64,000 bases of DNA from Candidatus Gugararchaeum adminiculabundum (GTDB taxonomy: Archaea; Micrarchaeota; Micrarchaeia; Burarchaeales; Gugararchaeaceae). A program made the position numbers and the translations under genes. The number at the start of each line of letters is the position of its first letter. Position 1 is the first letter of the stretch. The notes under the pieces are model-generated. The model ran no database searches and had not been told where the DNA came from. It saw only the letters and a program-made list of their open reading frames with translations. Positions 3,857 through 55,219 of the stretch are shown here, piece after piece. The stretch is taken from the NCBI GenBank assembly GCA_902384795.1, contig CABMDC010000012.1, forward strand, positions 197,970-261,969, written 5' to 3'.

Positions 3857-3964
3857 CCCATCGTAGCTCAATGGCAGAGCGCTCGACTGTAGTATGTTAA
3901 ACAAAAACACTCCCAAACGGGATTGGAAATCGAGCGGTTAGGAGTTCAAGTCTCCTCGATGGGA
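3857..3964 (+). tRNA. tRNA-Tyr (GTA) with a 36-nt intron
   Basis: The acceptor stem CCCATCG pairs with CGATGGG (3957-3963), and the C1-G72 pair with discriminator A fits archaeal tRNA-Tyr. The D arm is GCTC/GAGC. The anticodon stem CTCGA pairs with TCGAG (3930-3934), and the loop carries anticodon GTA. The T arm is AGGAG-TTCAAGT-CTCCT. The anticodon loop is interrupted after position 37 by an intron at about 3893-3928, which has a small internal hairpin. This is the standard archaeal intron site cut by the splicing endonuclease. Confidence 0.9.
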
Positions 3965-4204: not shown

Positions 4205-4287
4205 GCCTTGATGGTGTAGTGGTCTAGCATACCGGCCTGTCGAATCCTTCGGGATAGCAGAGAGTCGGCGACCCGGGTCCGAATCCC
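4205..4287 (+). tRNA. tRNA-Asp (GTC) with a 20-nt intron
   Basis: The acceptor GCCTTGA pairs with TCAAGGC and the discriminator is G (4287). The anticodon stem CCGGC pairs with GTCGG, and the anticodon GTC is at 4239-4241. The T arm is CCGGG-TCCGAAT-CCCGG. A 20-nt intron (about 4243-4262) sits at position 37/38 and folds as ATCC-TTCG-GGAT, a minimal stem for the splicing endonuclease. A T-rich run directly after 4288 is a likely terminator. Confidence 0.9.
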
Positions 4288-4357
4288 GGTCAAGGCGCTT
4301 CTTTTTTATTTTCTGGGATAGTGAACGAGAGGAAGGTGGCGGAGGAGGGGAGAAAGG

Positions 4358-5899: not shown

Positions 5900-6817
5900 T
5901 TACTTCTTTCCCATGAACTGCGGTCCGCCTGCGATTGCGGCTTCAAGTGTCGAATAAAATTCGAAGAGGCCCAGCATGTGGCAAAGCCCGCATATTTTCA
6001 GAAACTCCGGCTTTGCTATCACTAGCCTGAGCGGAACACCCCAATATTTAGCACTGGACCCTAGCTTGCTCAACAACGCCCAGCCCTCGATATCAATGCC
6101 CTCGACATGCTGGAGATTGAGTATGATGCCTTTTGCTTGGCTTTTTTCAGCTTCAGCCAACAGGTCTGCCAATACTCCGCTTGCAGGCGGCGGTTCGCCG
6201 AGAGAGACGGGGTAGAAGATTTCCAGTGGCTCGTCTGTCCATGGCTTGACAAAGTTCACGATTGCCCAGCCGTTCTCCTGCAGGGAAAACAAGGTGCGCT
6301 CGTTTATTTTCTTAGGGCCGCTGGCTGCGGAAGAAAGTTCGTCCGATTCCAGCAGGCGGCCCTGGAGCTGGGCATTGCCTGCGAACGCGGTTTCCAGCGT
6401 TGGGTAGATTTCCGATGCCCTGAGGAAGCCGGAAAGTATCAGCTCATTGCGAAGGGATCTTGCGGGTGCCAAAACCCTTGACGGGATTTTTTTCTCAGCA
6501 GACAGCTTGCCCGCCTCAAGCATCGCCCACCGGGCAGAGCTGCGCGTCATAAAGTTAAAATCCGAAAGATCGAGCACAACTCCCTGCAATCCTTCTTTTT
6601 CGAATATTGCCCGCAGCTCTTCCCTGAAATCAGTCAGAGTGCAGCGCTGGCATTTCGATGATTCTATGGCATTGAGCGCCAGGAGTTTTATGACCGCAAA
6701 GCCGTTTTCCATCACTCTGGTTTCAAAGTATCCGCCGATGGAGCGGACTCCTTTGGCAGCGGAAGCGCCATTTGCCGGAGTCCGCGGCCCGGGCCCCTGC
6801 TCTTTTATTTCAGCCAT
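5900..6817 (-). CDS. Protein with two STAS domains (anti-sigma-antagonist-like)
   Basis: The 305-residue protein has a disordered start (about 1-28) and then two STAS-like units, about residues 30-147 and 175-297. Each shows the SpoIIAA-type beta strand and helix. The first has VVLDLSDFNFMTRSSARWAML, where the serine that is phosphorylated in SpoIIAA would fall in RSSA. The second has IILNLQHVEGIDIEGWALL, which lacks that serine. Each ends with a similar FYSTLEAAIAG/IYPTLETAFAG segment, so the halves are a duplication. STAS proteins bind anti-sigma kinases in bacteria. The nearby sigma-70-like gene makes that link worth testing, but no kinase gene is seen. Confidence 0.72.
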   Translation of the reverse strand: MAEIKEQGPGPRTPANGASAAKGVRSIGGYFETRVMENGFAVIKLLALNAIESSKCQRCTLTDFREELRAIFEKEGLQGVVLDLSDFNFMTRSSARWAMLEAGKLSAEKKIPSRVLAPARSLRNELILSGFLRASEIYPTLETAFAGNAQLQGRLLESDELSSAASGPKKINERTLFSLQENGWAIVNFVKPWTDEPLEIFYPVSLGEPPPASGVLADLLAEAEKSQAKGIILNLQHVEGIDIEGWALLSKLGSSAKYWGVPLRLVIAKPEFLKICGLCHMLGLFEFYSTLEAAIAGGPQFMGKK

Positions 6818-6842
6818 GGAATCATCTGATGCTCTGGTTTTT

Positions 6843-7730
6843 CTAGGACTTTAGTTTTGACTGGACTATTTCCCTGTCTTCCGGATACTTGAAGCTCAAT
6901 GCGACGTTTGGGTCGCGAACCTTCACTATGCCTGCCTTGCATTTCATTTGTTTTAGGATGTCCTTTAGTATATCTTCGGTGATTGTTTTCTCTCTTGCTA
7001 TTCTGAGAAAAATAGGTGTTGGTATTTCCTTTGCAACATTGGCTGCTTTTTGCCCTGCCTTTGCCAAATTCCCGAGAATTTTTATAATATTGCCTTCGAG
7101 AATCGTGCTAAAATTGTCTTTAAGCCAATAAACGCTGGTGATGATGTTCAAATTGTCCAAAAGGCTGCCCGCGAATGCGACGGTGCTGCCGCCAAACATG
7201 AATTTGTCATTGCCTTTTCCCAAAGGCTTTTGTGCCGCGTGCATAGCGGAGTAAATTCCGGTTGCGCAACTTACTGGAACGATCGGAATCGCAAAATCGA
7301 GCTTCTGCGCCAAGACTTGTTCCTTTATCTGCAAAAGCGTTTCAGTCGAAACAGTGCAGCTGTCCCCGGGGGGTATTATAACCAGAGTGTTTCTTCCAAA
7401 TGTGTCGGCCATGTGTTTTATGGTCGGAGATAGCGCGTCTCCGCTTACTTCTTTTGTTTCAAAAATGTCAAGCCACGGGCGCTCGCCTTCGCCCCTTAAT
7501 TGATTGGCTATATCGGGGTGGCAGGAAAGCGTGACTCCGGCTATTTTCCTTTCGTCCAGCGCTTGTTTGGCATTGCCAAGAACAATGCAAAGCGGATTGG
7601 TAACACTGCCGTCTTTTAGATCTAGTGAAAAAAGGCAGCGGTTGCCAAATGGCAGAACTGTGCCCGGAGGCACATCTTTAGGCGCGCTCGTAGCTGCGCC
7701 AATAAATAAACGTGGAAGAGGTCCTGCCAT
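6843..7730 (-). CDS. Possible nucleotidyltransferase-fold protein
   Basis: A 295-residue soluble protein that I cannot name firmly. Several segments resemble the MobA/NTP-transferase fold: an N-terminal AGP-R-GAATS loop followed by GTVLPFGNRCL (compare the usual AGG-GTR-PK-L-pattern), a PPGDS segment where GD-P is usual, DFAIPIVPV, and a late FKYPEDREIV resembling the common D-PEDL end. The classical Gly-rich loop is degraded, so activity is doubtful. The TATA-like TTATATG about 20 nt before the ATG suggests a leaderless message. The STAS gene follows on the same strand 25 bp downstream, so they may be co-transcribed. Confidence 0.4.
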   Translation of the reverse strand: MAGPLPRLFIGAATSAPKDVPPGTVLPFGNRCLFSLDLKDGSVTNPLCIVLGNAKQALDERKIAGVTLSCHPDIANQLRGEGERPWLDIFETKEVSGDALSPTIKHMADTFGRNTLVIIPPGDSCTVSTETLLQIKEQVLAQKLDFAIPIVPVSCATGIYSAMHAAQKPLGKGNDKFMFGGSTVAFAGSLLDNLNIITSVYWLKDNFSTILEGNIIKILGNLAKAGQKAANVAKEIPTPIFLRIAREKTITEDILKDILKQMKCKAGIVKVRDPNVALSFKYPEDREIVQSKLKS

Positions 7731-7823
7731 ATTACACTACCGCATATAATTCGGCTGGGATGTTTAAAAAGATGACGGGATGTGGAAGAAGGCGCGGGCG
7801 GGGCGGATTGGAAAGATAGCCGA

Positions 7824-8285
7824 TTATAGCTTCCTGAAATGGTACACCAGCAAAAGCAGCGTGAACACCAGGAAGGAAACTCCGAAAGACCATGCCCCCA
7901 TGGAGGAGTAGAGGGCGAGCGAGATGGAAAGGAAAACCGCAAGCCCGAATGGTATGAAGCCTAGCACCATGAACTTGTGGCTTCGCATGATGAACTTCTC
8001 CTTTTTGGTATAGGGAAAGTGGGAGTGGTGGTAGAGCACTGGCAGGGAAAAGAGAAGCATGGATGAGGCGCTGGCAACAAGCGCGAACAACAGGAGGAAC
8101 ATCCTGACCGGCTCGAGCCCTTTGTCAATAATTGACGCGCTTAGGAGAAATCCGAAAAGTATGCCGACGAAACCGGTCATGGCGCGCGATTCCCCGAGCA
8201 CATCGGAAAGGTTCTCGGACATGTCAAAGTCAAAGTGGCGCGGGTTGTCTAGCAGTTGGTTGCTAGGCGGTTGGTTGCTTGCCAT
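7824..8285 (-). CDS. Four-helix membrane protein, DUF6328-like
   Basis: A 153-residue protein with four predicted transmembrane helices (about residues 37-57, 62-85, 107-127, 130-150). A short charged hairpin (SHFPYTKKEKFIMRSHK) lies between helices 2 and 3. The order E-R, GFLFGFLLS, then a Pro-x-x-x-HH loop before charged residues resembles the DUF6328 family of small archaeal and actinobacterial membrane proteins, whose function is not known. The N-terminus is Asn/Gln-rich and cytoplasmic. It lies among the same-strand accessory genes without close coupling. Confidence 0.55.
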   Translation of the reverse strand: MASNQPPSNQLLDNPRHFDFDMSENLSDVLGESRAMTGFVGILFGFLLSASIIDKGLEPVRMFLLLFALVASASSMLLFSLPVLYHHSHFPYTKKEKFIMRSHKFMVLGFIPFGLAVFLSISLALYSSMGAWSFGVSFLVFTLLLLVYHFRKL

Positions 8286-8324
8286 TGGAGTGGATATTCA
8301 CATAACAGTATTTATAGCTTGAGT

Positions 8325-9572
8325 TTAGATGAACAAAGGCCGCTCTGCGAACGGATCTATTTGTTTTGTTTTTCCCTTAAAGCGGGCGAGCTTTCCTGTA
8401 GCTTCGGTTATTAGCACAGTTGGACGGAGCTTGTCATTTGCTTCCATTACCCGGCCGCTCATGACCTCCCTCAGCTTCCCATTATCCTCAGTCTGAACAA
8501 TCACTGCCTCATCCTTGGCAAATGGTTTTATGATTTCGAAGAATGCGCTGAATGCCTCTGCGTCTGGGCCGGATTCTTGCCTATTCGAATAAAGCCGCGC
8601 AAGAGTCTTCAAGCGTGGCTCGGAAGCAGAATACTCGTCCCATTGGTCTGCGATTGGAAGGATTGAGGTGAAAATGTTCGGGGCTACTTTCTTCTTGTCT
8701 TTTTGCACATGATGGTCCCGCACCAATACCCGCGTAAGGAAATTATCGGAAAAATGTTTCTTGATCAGCTCCCAGCTTTCCTGCCCGTGATTGCCCACCT
8801 CTTTCGGAGGCTTCTGGGAAAAACATAGGGCGGCATAGTCTTTGGGAGAGAGAAGCGCAAGCGAAGCGTCATGGAAAAGCGCGCCAAGGAATGCGCTGAA
8901 AACCGTTTCCGGGATTTCGACCTGCTCCACATCACCAAATAACTGCCCTTCTCGCATGCTGGCCAGCGGATAGGTTTTTTGGGGTTTGTTGTTGTAAGGG
9001 TCGCCGGGTTTCCATATTTGCCTGCGCTCGTTTGCCAAGGCGAAAGTTGCTGCGAAGATGAGCGCTGTGTTTGCCATGTGGTCAAGGTAGTGCTCCAGGG
9101 GGCGCAGATCCGCCTCTCCCAGGGCAAAATTTTTCAAATTCTTGTGCCACAGGTGGGTTGCAAAAAGCTGGCCAAGCAGGGCATGAATATTTTTTATCTC
9201 GGAATTGGCCCCTGAGTCCAGGTTCAGGTATCTTTCAAGGTAGTAATGGAAAAGGTCCGCATACTCCCTTAGGGTGAGATCGGATTTGGAGGCTTCGCCT
9301 GCCGCGAAATCCGAATTTGAAGTGACTGTTATTACGTAATTGGGATCTTTGTTGTATTTGTCCTCACCCAGCAATAGTTCCACGTGCTTTAGTGTGAGCT
9401 CGACTGCCCCGCTGCCGGTTACGGCGCGTGCCCGGGTTTTAGGGCCAACGGGTATGTTTGACAGGCAAAAGAGGCGCTCCCCATTTTCTAGCCTTCTTTC
9501 CAGCTCCTTCAGAGTGACGAGCTGGTGCTCGGCCGCCTTTGCCCGGATGTCTTGACGAGTAGCAAACCTCAT
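8325..9572 (-). CDS. HD-GYP-like HD-domain protein
   Basis: The 415-residue protein carries metal-binding motifs in the order seen in HD-GYP phosphohydrolases: His in LEHYLDHMANT, the HD pair in GALFHDASLAL, His-His in LVRDHHVQKDK, and Asp in LPIADQWDEY. The GYP motif after the HH pair (usually HHE-DG-GYP) is missing, so cyclic-di-GMP hydrolysis is not assured. The N-terminal 150 residues include a NIPVGPKTRARAV segment and helices I do not recognise. I chose the ATG at 9572, since CTATATTATTA upstream fits a TATA box about 20-25 nt away. An ATG ten codons upstream (9602) is also in frame. Confidence 0.65.
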   Translation of the reverse strand: MRFATRQDIRAKAAEHQLVTLKELERRLENGERLFCLSNIPVGPKTRARAVTGSGAVELTLKHVELLLGEDKYNKDPNYVITVTSNSDFAAGEASKSDLTLREYADLFHYYLERYLNLDSGANSEIKNIHALLGQLFATHLWHKNLKNFALGEADLRPLEHYLDHMANTALIFAATFALANERRQIWKPGDPYNNKPQKTYPLASMREGQLFGDVEQVEIPETVFSAFLGALFHDASLALLSPKDYAALCFSQKPPKEVGNHGQESWELIKKHFSDNFLTRVLVRDHHVQKDKKKVAPNIFTSILPIADQWDEYSASEPRLKTLARLYSNRQESGPDAEAFSAFFEIIKPFAKDEAVIVQTEDNGKLREVMSGRVMEANDKLRPTVLITEATGKLARFKGKTKQIDPFAERPLFI

Positions 9573-9653
9573 AATAATCCATAATAATATAGATTTTAAC
9601 ACTTTTAATACTTTGCCCTGCTTGCGGTTTGTGGAAGAATTAGATTACTTGGA

Positions 9654-11315
9654 TTATTCCAGCGGATAGGCGTTCTTGAGCGCTTTAAAATGAGGGGAGC
9701 GCTGGAGCTTGGGAAGGAACTCGCCATTGAACTTTGGCTCGATTGCCTGCCTGCTGAATCCCAATTTTTTCCCGATTTCCCCGAAAGTGACATCAGGCTC
9801 GTCCGGCCGGGCCCAAAAGCGTTCGTGCATGACAAACTCTTCTCTTTCGGTAAAGTCTGTTTTCTCCTTTGCATCCTGGAAATCCAATCTCCTGATCACT
9901 TCATCCAAAGCATCCGGCCCGCCAAAGCCAAGCCTTTTGTCCTCGAGCAGGCCGAGCATGGTGGATGAATCCGTAAGGAGCATATTCTGCAATGGCGCAT
10001 CCAGCTCATCCATTCGTGCCTGGTGAAGAATTCTCCTAAGATCGGTGATTGTTTGCGCCGTGACATCCTTGCGGGTGACCCAGCGTTTTTGGATGTGTGC
10101 CGCTATTTCTTCAGGGGTCGCATGCGGCCCGAGGAAAGAAACCGTTGCATCATAGATCTGTTTCAAATCATAAATCGGAGAGGACATTTGCGCGTAGGGG
10201 GAGTTGTCGCGGTAATTGTCGCTGGTCCCGTTGGTGATGCTTGAGCGCGCATAGGTGCTGAACGCGGCTCCCCTCCAGGGGTCATATTTGTCAACTGCGA
10301 TTGTAAGCCCGAGCATTGCGGACTGGAATGCGTCTTCCAGGCTTCCGCCGGTATGCTTAAGGGCTCCCGTCAGGGCAAGGCGCAGATTGGAATGGATGAT
10401 TGCGTCCCTTAAAGCTGTGAACTGCGGTTCGTAGTCGCTTCCCAGCGCCTCTGTCGCCCTTAATCCGATGAAAAGCGCATTTGCTTCTTCAGAATTGGGC
10501 ACGTCACGTATATACATCTCGTGTTCCAGGGCTTTTTTGGAATTGGCGAAACTCGGAACATAGCCCTTGAGCTCCAAATCCAGGTTTTTCTTTTTTATTT
10601 CGCACCCGAGTTTTTTCAGGATTTTTATCCCTTCGGCCACTTCCGCCTCGAGCTGCGGGGAAATCCAGCCTGCGATGTCCCTGCGCGTTTCAAACGCCCC
10701 AAGGAATTTCGGGAACTGCATTTTCGGGCTGACCCCGATCACCAGGAAATCTCCCATCACTTTCTTAATTCGCTCCAGGCTATGGCCGGCCTTGGTCAGC
10801 GCCTTGGCCTGGTAATCGGCAAAGCCGAAATCTCTCCTGAGCTTTTCGCACTTGAGCCTCGCGGCATCCTCCTGCTTGTAGATTCTTTTCAGCTCAACTG
10901 CGAAGTAGGTGTTGAGAAACCAGCGGAGTGGTTCGCCAGGCTGTGCTGATTTTTTCCTGGTCTTTTTTAGGTAGAGGTCTCGTATCGGGGTTACTGCGCC
11001 GCCGAGATTGTGCCTCACCAAATCATTCAGGCTTACCTGGTCCGGAGTTTTCCCTGTCTGTTTTGCCGTAAGCTTGATTGCTGCTTTTATGGTTTTGGCG
11101 CTCCAGGGGATTACTACTAGCGTGCCGTGGGTAGTTGGCGATTTGGCCAGCGCGCCGAGCAGAACTGGCTTAAGGTTGAAGCTTTGGTTCGGGTCAAGCA
11201 TTGATTGGGGGATAGGATTCGCGTCCTTTGCCGCGCCCTTGCCTGCGCTTGGCACTTCCCTTAATCCCATGCTGTTGTTTTCATTGTTTCTATTTCCATT
11301 GCTCAAATTACCCAC
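9654..11315 (-). CDS. Sigma-70-like transcription factor
   Basis: The 553-residue frame has a clear sigma-70 core in its second half. Region 2 is about residues 300-375, with LEDAFQSAMLGLTIAVDKYD and WRGAAFSTYARSSI, the core-binding pattern of bacterial sigma factors. Region 3 is about 381-430, with the PEEIAAHI motif. Region 4 is about 485-545, with TEREEFVMHERF, then VTFGEIGKKLGFSRQAI as helix-turn-helix. Region 2.4, which would read the -10 element, is strongly altered (aromatics lost). The first 300 residues are unknown, basic and helical. The likely start is TTG at 11306, with AGGTGG just before it; GTG at 11315 is also in frame. A TATA-like GTATATAATA lies near 11328. Archaea normally use TBP/TFB, so this is exceptional. 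Confidence 0.8.
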   Translation of the reverse strand: MGNLSNGNRNNENNSMGLREVPSAGKGAAKDANPIPQSMLDPNQSFNLKPVLLGALAKSPTTHGTLVVIPWSAKTIKAAIKLTAKQTGKTPDQVSLNDLVRHNLGGAVTPIRDLYLKKTRKKSAQPGEPLRWFLNTYFAVELKRIYKQEDAARLKCEKLRRDFGFADYQAKALTKAGHSLERIKKVMGDFLVIGVSPKMQFPKFLGAFETRRDIAGWISPQLEAEVAEGIKILKKLGCEIKKKNLDLELKGYVPSFANSKKALEHEMYIRDVPNSEEANALFIGLRATEALGSDYEPQFTALRDAIIHSNLRLALTGALKHTGGSLEDAFQSAMLGLTIAVDKYDPWRGAAFSTYARSSITNGTSDNYRDNSPYAQMSSPIYDLKQIYDATVSFLGPHATPEEIAAHIQKRWVTRKDVTAQTITDLRRILHQARMDELDAPLQNMLLTDSSTMLGLLEDKRLGFGGPDALDEVIRRLDFQDAKEKTDFTEREEFVMHERFWARPDEPDVTFGEIGKKLGFSRQAIEPKFNGEFLPKLQRSPHFKALKNAYPLE

Positions 11316-11400
11316 CTAAGAAGTAGCTTATTATATACGTTCATGGATTTATTAAGGTTGCGCATTTTGCCCCTGAATCCGCTGTTTTTGTTTCCATCTT

Positions 11401-11676
11401 CTACCTTTTCCCGGTCAGCTTGATGAGATGATAGCCGAACTGGGTTTTCACAGGGGCCGAGACTTCGCCTTCCTTGAGCGCGAATGCCGCGGTTTCGAAT
11501 TCCTTCACCATCTGCCCTTTTCCGAAAAAGCCCAAATCGCCTCCTTGCGACTTGCTCGGGCAGGAGGAGAATTTCTTCGCGAGGTCTGAGAAGCTCTTGC
11601 CTGACTTGAGCTCGGAAAGAACTGAATTTGCCTCGTCTAAGTTTGATACCAATATGTGGCTTGCCCTAATCATCAT
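11401..11676 (-). CDS. Parvulin-type peptidyl-prolyl isomerase
   Basis: A single-domain parvulin of 91 residues, close to the size of bacterial PpiC. It begins RASHILV, has [21 protein letters not shown] in the middle, the [11 protein letters not shown] helix, and ends with [12 protein letters not shown]. These are the family's substrate pocket segments. There is no signal peptide, so it works in the cytoplasm, speeding proline isomerisation during folding. An AGGTGAT ribosome site precedes the ATG pair at 11676/11673. Confidence 0.93.
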
Positions 11677-27568: not shown

Positions 27569-28384
27569 TTAGCAAATCTTCACAGAATATCCTTTTACTT
27601 TGGCGAGCGGATCAATGTTCTTGGTAGTGAGCATGTTTTTTGCTGAACCCTTACGAGCATCGGAACCCATGAATTCGTTTATTGCATTTGTGGCTTCTTT
27701 TTCTGCCATTTCAGTCAGCCGGCCTAATTTGGCTTTTTCGGCAGCCGCGGCTATTGTGTGGGAATCTTTTTCATCAGAGTTATGCGTTTCATAATAGCGC
27801 CTGCGCGCGAATTTGGAATGCACTTCCGAAGGCCTTAACTCTGGAATTTCGAGACGGTCAAAAACATCTGGCCATTTTGGGCAGTCGAGAAGCTTGCACA
27901 GTGCGTTGGCAGAACGTATGGAGGTGTTGCCTCCATCGCGCTCAATGCGGTAGAACTCGTCCCAGGCGGTCTTGGTGGCTTTTCCCACTTCCAGAGATTT
28001 GGCCCATTTGATAAAAAATTGGGAATTCTTCTTTTTGAGGTCCGAGGCGCCATCCGCTGAAGTGCAGGATGCAACAAACTCCGTGTATGGCCCGGTCAGA
28101 TGGCGCAGGGCGGAATAGGACCGCAGGAGAGGGATGTTTTTGTATTTGGTCGCCCGTTTGGCTTTTTTTGGATCTTGTTCCAGGGCTTCGGCATACTCGT
28201 CTTTTAGGCTTTGGATATGCGCGTCCCATCCGACAGGACCGTCTGGGGCGCAGCCGAATTTCTTGACATATTTTTTGAGAACCTCAAGGTTGGCACTTTT
28301 GATGGAGTCAATTTCATCTGGAGAGAGCGAGGCATGGTGCGGATTTATTCCTTTCCGCTTTGAACTTTCGACTAATCTGGACAT
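27569..28384 (-). CDS. Repeat protein of unknown family (paralogue A)
   Basis: A 271-residue soluble protein related to the next gene upstream (28443-29447). Each has units that begin LSPDEIDSIKSAN-like and go on with a pattern of aromatic residues: here about residues 21-105 with WDAHIQSLKDEY and LLRSYSALRHLTGPYTEF, and about 118-178 with FFIKWAKSLEVG, AWDEFYRI, IRSANALCKLLD and WPDVFDRLEIPE. The pattern (aromatic-W-D near the start, L-S-AL-LF-W-F near the end) resembles the homing-endonuclease-associated repeats of phage and organelle proteins. The last 70 residues are charged helix. I infer DNA or RNA binding; no catalytic motif is seen. Confidence 0.55.
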   Translation of the reverse strand: MSRLVESSKRKGINPHHASLSPDEIDSIKSANLEVLKKYVKKFGCAPDGPVGWDAHIQSLKDEYAEALEQDPKKAKRATKYKNIPLLRSYSALRHLTGPYTEFVASCTSADGASDLKKKNSQFFIKWAKSLEVGKATKTAWDEFYRIERDGGNTSIRSANALCKLLDCPKWPDVFDRLEIPELRPSEVHSKFARRRYYETHNSDEKDSHTIAAAAEKAKLGRLTEMAEKEATNAINEFMGSDARKGSAKNMLTTKNIDPLAKVKGYSVKIC

Positions 28385-28442
28385 TGCTAAGATTACAGCG
28401 TTTAGATTTTAATAGGTTTCCACTTATAGCCACATAGCTCGA

Positions 28443-29447
28443 TTAGCCCATGCCAGTGAAACTTATCTTTTGTTTGGTTGCGGCAGGTTTAGCTTTTGAA
28501 TTTTTATTGCCAGTGGAAGCCTGATTGTGGCGCACCCCGTCCTGTATCTCATCCCGTAGTTCTAACAACCTTAACTCTGCTGCACGACGGTCAACGGACT
28601 TTTTTGGGAAAACAAAATCTGATTTCTCTTCTTCAGGAAGATTGCGCGAATTGTGAATTGAGCTTGCTGGCCTTGACCGTTTCTCGGGGCGCTGGAGGTC
28701 AAATAGATCGAAAAGTGCATCCCATTCTTTTACCCCAAAGAGCTCAAGCAATGGCGCAATGGATAGAAGGTCTGGGTTGGTCTTTTTCTGGCGATTTTTG
28801 TACTGATTCCAGGCCCCTCGATTGGGGATGCGAACTTGGTTTAAGCTGGGCGGGTTTAGGCAAAAATCAACGAAATCCAGGAATCCTTCCTTATTGACTT
28901 TCTTCAAACGGTCAGTTTCTTCAGGAGAAAGGTCTGCTAAGATTGACCTATGCCCTATTTTGGAATCAAAACCGCATTCCTCCCTGAATACTGCCCAGCT
29001 TTTGAAAAGTTTGGCCAAAGCCTTTGAATTTAACAGGTCCGGGATCTCTTCATGCTCTGCGATATGCTTGTCCCAGTCCGTGGTTGTGCCGCTCCCTCTT
29101 TCTTCATTGACCCATTTTTGGTACTCCTGGATATTGGCATCCTTTATTTCCCTCACTCTTGCCTTGGAAAGCGGTTCCTTGGCCCGCACCTTGTGCGAAA
29201 TGCCTTGAGGGCGGGCTGGAAGATGGCATTCATCTTCCACAAATTGGTTCCAGGTGTCCATGCCATAGGAGCTCATTAAAGCCCCTGGAGCCTTGAGCAG
29301 GGTTTTTTTCTTCTTGTTTTTTTCCCCGACAAATTCTTTCCATTCGGTGTAGGACGGGGTGTGATGCAGCTTTTTTGCAAGTTTTTGGAAAGCATCTACA
29401 TTAGCTTGGAGGGTTTTTGCTTTTTCTTCTTCTGATTGGACTGGCAT
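28443..29447 (-). CDS. Repeat protein of unknown family (paralogue B)
   Basis: A 334-residue protein with three units like those of the neighbouring gene: about residues 17-75 (FQKLAKKLHHTPSYTEWKEF, MSSYGMDTWNQFVEDE), 96-160 (LSKARVREIKDANIQEYQKW, LLNSKALAKLFKSWAVF), and 174-250 (LSPEETDRLKKVNKEGFLDF, LLELFGVKEWDALFDLFDL). The spacing of the tryptophans and the leucine-rich end recur in each. The C-terminus (about 255-334) is basic and low in order. It lies 58 bp upstream of its paralogue on the same strand, so the pair arose by duplication. No membrane segment. Function is unknown; sequence-specific nucleic-acid binding is my guess. Confidence 0.55.
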   Translation of the reverse strand: MPVQSEEEKAKTLQANVDAFQKLAKKLHHTPSYTEWKEFVGEKNKKKKTLLKAPGALMSSYGMDTWNQFVEDECHLPARPQGISHKVRAKEPLSKARVREIKDANIQEYQKWVNEERGSGTTTDWDKHIAEHEEIPDLLNSKALAKLFKSWAVFREECGFDSKIGHRSILADLSPEETDRLKKVNKEGFLDFVDFCLNPPSLNQVRIPNRGAWNQYKNRQKKTNPDLLSIAPLLELFGVKEWDALFDLFDLQRPEKRSRPASSIHNSRNLPEEEKSDFVFPKKSVDRRAAELRLLELRDEIQDGVRHNQASTGNKNSKAKPAATKQKISFTGMG

Positions 29448-54055: not shown

Positions 54056-55219
54056 ATGCCTAGAAATGACGATCTTCGGAGGATTGACTCTGAGCTCACA
54101 CTCATAGTTGATATGTTCAACATAACCAATGCCTGCTTGAATTATTGCTCTCACTGCCTCTCGAAGGCAACTAAAAATGGAGGGCATCTGAAATTCTCGC
54201 ATATCGAACCGCTTCTTGATTCAGACCGATTGCTTTTTGGGTATGAGTATAATGGACGCGAATTGCAGAGAGGCAAGAAAGGCACAAGCACAACTCTCAG
54301 CGTCGGTGACCCCTTAGAATACGACTCAGAAGGAAAGAACGTGGGAGAGGTTGCTCGCTTAATGCACAAAAAATTTTCATACTTTGATGAGAGTGTTTTT
54401 AGATGTATATTGAAGGAGTTTAAAAATAAAACATACACGCAGCTGGAAACATACGCGCGGCTGCATTCTACATACACTCACACCACTTCTATATTAACTG
54501 CAGTCATAATGCCTGATGACAAGTTCAAGCGCTCGGTGATAGGAAATCTCGCAGAAATAAAAGAAATGGTGCAAATGACCTTGAGCATTAACCTATATCG
54601 CCTAAGGCCAAAAACAGGCTTTGGGATTGAGGAATACAAACGGGCGCTTGAATACACTGTAGAATTGTTAGCTCCGTTTAACCCGGATTTTAATGTGCGC
54701 TTTGATAATTCAAATAAAGACGAAACATTCCAACTTGCAGGGGAGATTACTGGCAAAAAAATCATTGACACATTGGAGGCTTCGCGCTCGGGCAACAATG
54801 AGGATGAAGGGATTATAGCTCGGCAGATAACTCGAGCTGGGTGGGCGAGGTGCTTCAGTGAAAACCGATTTGATGAAACAGGAATAAATAGAAATAATGT
54901 CCAGAGAGCTATGGGATATGAAAGACCTTATGTTGACATAAACGGGGATTACTCGATAACGCTTGCAAATTGTGACCTGCACGGTCCGGAAGGTATTTTT
55001 ATCGGAGATGTCCGCACCCACTCTTCAGAAGATGTAATACAGGAATTGCAAACATTCAAGGAGATTATGCTGAGGAAGCTGGAGGAGGCAGGACCAGCGG
55101 CAAAAGGACGCTCTAACAACATTTACTATGAGAATTTGAAAGAGATAAGAGGGGAGATGCAAGCTGCACGCGAAAAACGCGGTTTCGTTCCTTCCAAAAA
55201 TCCGATTTTGAAAGTTTAA
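54056..55219 (+). CDS. Orphan radical SAM protein
   Basis: A 387-residue protein with a radical SAM cluster motif in ITNACLNYCSHCLSKAT (CX3CX2C, residues about 27-34). The C-terminal part has YVDINGDYSITLANCDLHG followed by IFIGDVRTHSSEDVIQ, like the start of SPASM or auxiliary-cluster regions, although only single cysteines remain. The middle is helical and unrecognised. Codon choice looks less G-rich than its neighbours, and it lies directly after tRNA-Cys, so I suspect transfer. No obvious substrate peptide gene is next to it. Its reaction cannot be told. Confidence 0.65.
   Translation: MPRNDDLRRIDSELTLIVDMFNITNACLNYCSHCLSKATKNGGHLKFSHIEPLLDSDRLLFGYEYNGRELQRGKKGTSTTLSVGDPLEYDSEGKNVGEVARLMHKKFSYFDESVFRCILKEFKNKTYTQLETYARLHSTYTHTTSILTAVIMPDDKFKRSVIGNLAEIKEMVQMTLSINLYRLRPKTGFGIEEYKRALEYTVELLAPFNPDFNVRFDNSNKDETFQLAGEITGKKIIDTLEASRSGNNEDEGIIARQITRAGWARCFSENRFDETGINRNNVQRAMGYERPYVDINGDYSITLANCDLHGPEGIFIGDVRTHSSEDVIQELQTFKEIMLRKLEEAGPAAKGRSNNIYYENLKEIRGEMQAAREKRGFVPSKNPILKV

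Follow-up and report, generated by a model that had tools for sequence, protein, structure and literature searches.

What does a bacterial-type sigma-70 protein do in the chromosome of an archaeon whose genome also encodes two TFBs? The question is raised by a gene of 553 codons in Candidatus Gugararchaeum adminiculabundum, lying in a window of 64,000 nucleotides (contig CABMDC010000012.1, positions 197,970 to 261,969), by which we mean the whole stretch of DNA analysed here. A preliminary description of this window had recognised the protein as a sigma factor and treated it as something exceptional. Below we ask how far it is a sigma factor, whether it belongs to the archaeon, which of its working parts are left, and which role these parts could still support. 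The features discussed are collected in Table 1.

Table 1. The sigma gene, its parts and its neighbours (feature; residues; window positions; strand; basis or remark)
Sigma-70 superfamily protein, 553 aa		9654..11315	(-)	GTG start; profile matches
N-terminal part, no recognisable family	about 290	10446..11315	(-)	Pfam and PDB sequence searches; model
Region 2	308-372	10200..10394	(-)	Pfam Sigma70_r2, 39.6 bits, cut-off 24
Region 3.2 / sigma-finger-like stretch, RMDELDAPLQNMLLTDSSTMLGLLEDKRLGFG	434-465	9921..10016	(-)	SigA/RpoD alignment only, no HMM cut-off passed
Region 4, putative helix-turn-helix	489-525	9741..9851	(-)	Sigma70_r4, 15.4 bits, below cut-off 24.1
425-aa orphan protein, 51 nt downstream of sigma		8325..9602	(-)	no Pfam/NCBIfam match
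DUF6328 protein, same-strand run		7824..8285	(-)	Pfam, 44.3 bits, cut-off 26.3
295-aa protein, same-strand run, no secure family		6843..7730	(-)
Double STAS-domain protein, last of run		5900..6817	(-)	PF01740, 50.4 bits, two stretches
PpiC-type peptidyl-prolyl isomerase, 85 nt upstream of sigma		11401..11676	(-)
TATATAAT, 14 nt before the sigma GTG		11330..11337	(-)	sequence; not found by promoter scan

Sigma-70 homology

Our profile searches indicate that the protein is a sigma-70 homologue, the similarity running as one continuous stretch from region 1.2/2 to region 4 (residues 291-537). Over these residues a custom profile, for which phage sigmas retrieved by pattern were combined with E. 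coli RpoD, gives a single domain of 75.3 bits, and since 2000 shuffles reached at most 5.6 bits, the similarity is not due to chance. SigA and RpoD chains in the PDB match residues 305-548 (best E 4e-10), and the NCBIfam model RpoD_Cterm aligns over residues 304-547 (E 2e-13) in an alignment that spans region 3, while TIGR02937, the NCBIfam model of the sigma70-ECF superfamily, is passed narrowly (43.9 bits against a cut-off of 42.9). The earlier identification of a genuine sigma-70 homologue with its regions in the expected order therefore holds, with matches well above noise. Taken family by family in Pfam the support is divided: Sigma70_r2 clears its cut-off, Sigma70_r4 does not, and Sigma70_r3 gives no match in the protein at E<=0.1. 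DNA binding by region 4 stays putative because its match lies below the threshold. Two further in-frame starts, TTG at residue 4 and ATG at residue 16, follow the GTG, and the ATG is a possible start.

The N-terminal part is of a different kind. Residues 1-300 gave no Pfam match at E<=5 and no PDB sequence match better than E 1. A beta-helix-helix element is predicted with moderate confidence near residues 66-119, in a region of the model of which much else has low confidence; the element has the look of a candidate ribbon-helix-helix. The full-length model, for which an alignment of sigmas served as input, has a mean pLDDT of 64.7, with the confidence concentrated in the sigma region. The top Foldseek matches of this model are all sigma-A chains (E 3e-8), but the TM is low and, because the model was built on a sigma alignment, the match gives weak and non-independent support for the fold. 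A single-sequence fold of the sigma core (pLDDT 40) was uninformative.

Residues of the sigma core

To see which parts of the core remain we took as reference positions whose roles are known from E. coli sigma, namely the clamp coiled-coil contacts in regions 2.1-2.2, the melting aromatics W433 and W434, and the -35 readout residues R584, E585, R588 and Q589. The clearest change is in the melting region. Where sigma factors have TWWIRQAIT after FSTYA, the window protein continues directly with RSSIT; TWWI is thus cleanly missing after residue 356, the equivalents of both W433 and W434 are gone with it, and the reading frame is intact around the gap. The earlier remark that region 2.4 had lost its aromatics is borne out and can now be put more sharply. 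Among 15 micrarchaeal sigmas compared, the gap at TWWI occurs in the window protein only, W434 being kept in 12 of the 14 others and both tryptophans in several. Because TWWI is absent here, the melting function has probably been lost.

The clamp-contact positions give a mixed picture. L384, D403 (= D328) and Q406 (= Q331) are kept, while V387, L402, E407, N409 and M413 are changed, so the statement that the core-binding part looks kept survives our residue audit for D403 and Q406 and fails for L402, E407, N409 and M413. In region 4 the equivalent of R584 is the only one of the four -35 readout residues to be kept, those of E585, R588 and Q589 being replaced by Q, E and K. A stretch like region 3.2, which the preliminary description had passed over, is also recognisable (ELDAPLQ...TDSSTMLGLLEDK, also given as ELDAPLQNMLLTDSSTMLGLLEDK).

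The polymerase clamp

Is there a place on the archaeal polymerase for such a protein? In all 13 micrarchaeal genomes aligned, R275, E295 and A302 of E. coli beta-prime correspond to I, L and H in the clamp helices of Rpo1', and because of these residues a bacterial-type docking site is missing. The 13 genomes comprise 7 with a sigma and 6 without, and no difference in the clamp was found between the two groups; we tried and rejected co-adaptation of the clamp to sigma, since the identity of the clamp with or without sigma gives no sign that the polymerase has adapted to it. Any binding may then go through contacts other than the residues that bacterial sigma contacts.

Residence in an archaeal chromosome

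The gene is archaeal-resident and not a bacterial contaminant. It lies on a contig of 268 kb, from a genome of 1.47 Mb that is 93% complete, and the contig is placed in Micrarchaeota by the relatives of its AdoMet synthetase. RNA polymerase A' is encoded on the same contig (C12:148252-149244), about 58 kb from the sigma locus, and the window itself encodes FEN1, GatE, an aMBF1-like protein and the archaeal AdoMet synthetase, which confirms the earlier view that this is a genuine archaeal chromosome. The codon usage of the sigma gene matches that of the contig (z = 0.17) and thus shows no sign of recent arrival.

Sigma-like genes, moreover, recur across the phylum, a fact absent from the preliminary description. 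Sigma70_r2 is above cut-off in 34 of 295 Micrarchaeota genomes (~12%; 35 at E <= 0.001) and in 2 of 19 genomes from the phylum of a Diapherotrites genome, and in 0 of 250 from the phylum of a Bathyarchaeota genome, where one weak, stop-broken match stays below it. In some micrarchaeal sigmas regions 2, 3 and 4 exceed or approach their cut-offs, and the gene is surrounded by archaeal ones, as at L125, where it stands between FtsZ and aMBF1/FEN1. Several are clearly chromosomal; others, on short contigs, could be contaminants case by case. Two tandem sigma-70 genes occur at L122:8231-10831; in the larger, each of regions 2, 3 and 4 clears its Pfam cut-off. Five sigma-like proteins (L027, L013, L016, L023, L126) have extra repeats, which in L027 weakly match the homing-endonuclease-associated HNH_repeat and in the others look similar by eye.

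That a bacterial gene was misassembled or binned into the archaeal genome is the reading with the least to recommend it. The data are a MAG, and some of the other sigma matches in the phylum are on short contigs; against this stand the archaeal polymerase gene on the same long contig, archaeal genes on both sides of the sigma, its host-like codon usage, and the blank result for 250 genomes of another archaeal phylum in the same search. We consider contamination highly improbable and essentially refuted.

Within the phylum the protein stands apart. A survey of 301 Micrarchaeota found no orthologue, and IMG/VR and GTDB 220 contigs contained no close relatives. In a tree of sigmas the window protein sits on a very long, unplaced branch, and the tree holds too many long branches for placement.

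Neighbouring genes and upstream element

The sigma gene is the first of a run of genes on the same strand, separated by gaps of 51, 39, 93 and 25 nt. Judged by this spacing only, the run 11315..5900 may be co-transcribed as an operon, perhaps one that regulates the sigma. The 425-aa neighbour has no orthologue in the 301 Micrarchaeota; by eye it looks like an HD-hydrolase, an assignment we dropped as HMMs give it no support. The double STAS protein, likewise found in no other of the 301 Micrarchaeota, scores 36.2 bits with the anti-sigma antagonist model TIGR00377, below the cut-off of 53.45. By eye, the serine of the phospho-site is kept in its first STAS domain (RSSA), while its second shows glutamate at that position (DIEG). 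A STAS protein near a sigma recalls partner switching in bacteria, but here the genome (93% complete) has no match to a HATPase_c_2 anti-sigma kinase, and a full partner-switch module is accordingly rejected.

Upstream, TATATAAT may represent a TATA element of archaeal type, or AT-rich sequence present by chance, and by its letters it would fit a bacterial -10 too. A scan for sigma-70-type promoters gave 9 sites against 5.4 expected and was uninformative.

Some features elsewhere in the window may be recorded here. Two adjacent proteins at 27569-29447 (-) have atypical codon usage (z about -1.8), and the second, at 28443-29447, matches HNH_repeat weakly. Codon usage also departs from that of the contig at 42113-43633 (-) and at 54056-55219 (+) (z about -1.9 to -2.1), the latter gene having only 43% GC. 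Two tRNA genes on the forward strand (3857-3964 and 4205-4297) are found by Rfam and not by ARAGORN; because they measure 108 and 93 bases, they probably have introns or long variable arms.

Comparison with known sigmas

Sigma factors in archaea were first described by Rinke et al. 2013, according to a 2018 review (PMC6126073). Castelle et al. 2021 (PMC8204110) reported sigma-70 genes in DPANN, particularly Woesearchaeota, ruled out mis-binning and found no anti-sigma factor with them. The open-licence papers that we searched contained no functional study of archaeal sigmas. As far as these accounts describe them, the sigmas of Rinke 2013 and Castelle 2021 resemble ours in being bacterial-type sigma-70 proteins in genomes where archaeal basal factors are present as well, with no anti-sigma factor found; the window protein differs from them in belonging to Micrarchaeota, in having its own N-terminal part of 290 residues, in lacking TWWI, and in heading a run that includes a STAS protein. 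Because archaeal sigmas were reported in 2013 and DPANN sigma-70 in 2021, and with about 12% of Micrarchaeota genomes positive here, the exceptionality implied earlier does not stand: the protein is an altered sigma variant and not the first of its kind, an unusually altered member of a puzzle already known.

With bacterial RpoD and SigA (group 1-2 sigma-70) it shares the order of regions 2, 3 and 4, FSTYA, D403 and Q406, and the 3.2-like stretch, at about 25-30% identity over the sigma core. Unlike them, it has neither W433 nor W434, its -35 helix is altered, Sigma70_r3 is not detectable, and the N-terminal third to half is different. The sigma core is also like the phage sigmas of PHROG 351, which gave the top score among all libraries searched (84 bits, residues 303-525) and may hint at a phage-like source; the likeness is limited to the sigma core, and tblastn matches in phages span at most about half of the query. 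Nearer by taxonomy is a micrarchaeal clade of three sigmas (L014, L015 and L020, with L006 close by BLAST), which belong to the same phylum, have regions 2 and 4 and unusual N-terminal parts, and of which at least L006, L014 and L015 adjoin archaeal genes. These sigmas retain W434 and, for the most part, the RERxRQ of region 4; the window protein differs in this and is not grouped with them.

Discussion

Which role, then, fits a protein that has kept the order of a sigma factor and lost some of its central residues? We propose, with a probability of roughly one half, that it is an exapted regulator that binds DNA via region 4, is possibly tethered to the clamp, and brings about no promoter melting of its own, rather than a canonical initiation factor. 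It would be a divergent sigma-70 protein whose ancestor came from a bacterium or a phage and which has been in the Micrarchaeota chromosome for a long time. On this proposal the protein would not open promoters in the bacterial style; its region 4 helix-turn-helix would most likely bind DNA sequence-specifically and so regulate transcription, possibly with some help from the N-terminal part and from whatever grip region 2 retains on the polymerase clamp, while basal initiation would still be carried out by TBP, TFB and the archaeal polymerase. The downstream genes, ending in the double STAS protein, would perhaps contribute to regulation. Against the proposal it counts that D403 and Q406, the best conserved of the clamp contacts, and the 3.2-like stretch survive, all needless for a protein that does no more than bind DNA.

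Could the protein still be a working alternative sigma, with region 2 on the archaeal clamp helices, region 3.2 reaching the active site like the B-reader of TFB, region 4 and the N-terminal part reading a dedicated promoter, and the STAS protein exerting control in the manner of a partner switch? The continuous homology through regions 2, 3 and 4 speaks for this, as do the retained D403, Q406 and 3.2-like stretch, the double STAS protein encoded last in the run and the existence elsewhere in the phylum of complete sigmas with all three regions. We nevertheless find it unlikely, with both melting tryptophans deleted, TFBs present, no HATPase_c_2 kinase in the genome, and clamp helices that lack the bacterial sigma contacts whether or not a sigma is there. 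At the other extreme, the sigma gene could have come in from a bacterium or virus together with its neighbours and now persist as a selfish or decaying remnant that drifts with no role in the cell, a reading which we rate equal to the working sigma. It would account for the very long branch, for the lost functional residues, and for sigma, 425-aa and STAS genes each of which occurs in no other of the 301 Micrarchaeota; but the frame of 553 codons is intact and host-adapted in codon usage, TWWI was lost in frame between flanks that align well, and genes of this kind recur in about 12% of the genomes of the phylum.

More generally, one may speculate, though we hold it rather improbable, that Micrarchaeota domesticated a sigma-70 which docks on the archaeal polymerase and drives or redirects the transcription of a dedicated regulon in parallel to TBP/TFB, the window protein being a melting-deficient, STAS-controlled version. 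That archaea can have sigma genes has been clear since 2013; what is added here is the survey of Micrarchaeota (34/295 against 0/250) and the comparison of the clamp. Because the sigmas are recurrent, several of them are chromosomal, and the clamp is unchanged by their presence, a sharp comparison becomes possible between complete sigmas such as L015 and L006 and the melting-deficient one described here, on the same archaeal polymerase. An archaeal polymerase that uses a bacterial sigma would bear on how the two initiation systems diverged.
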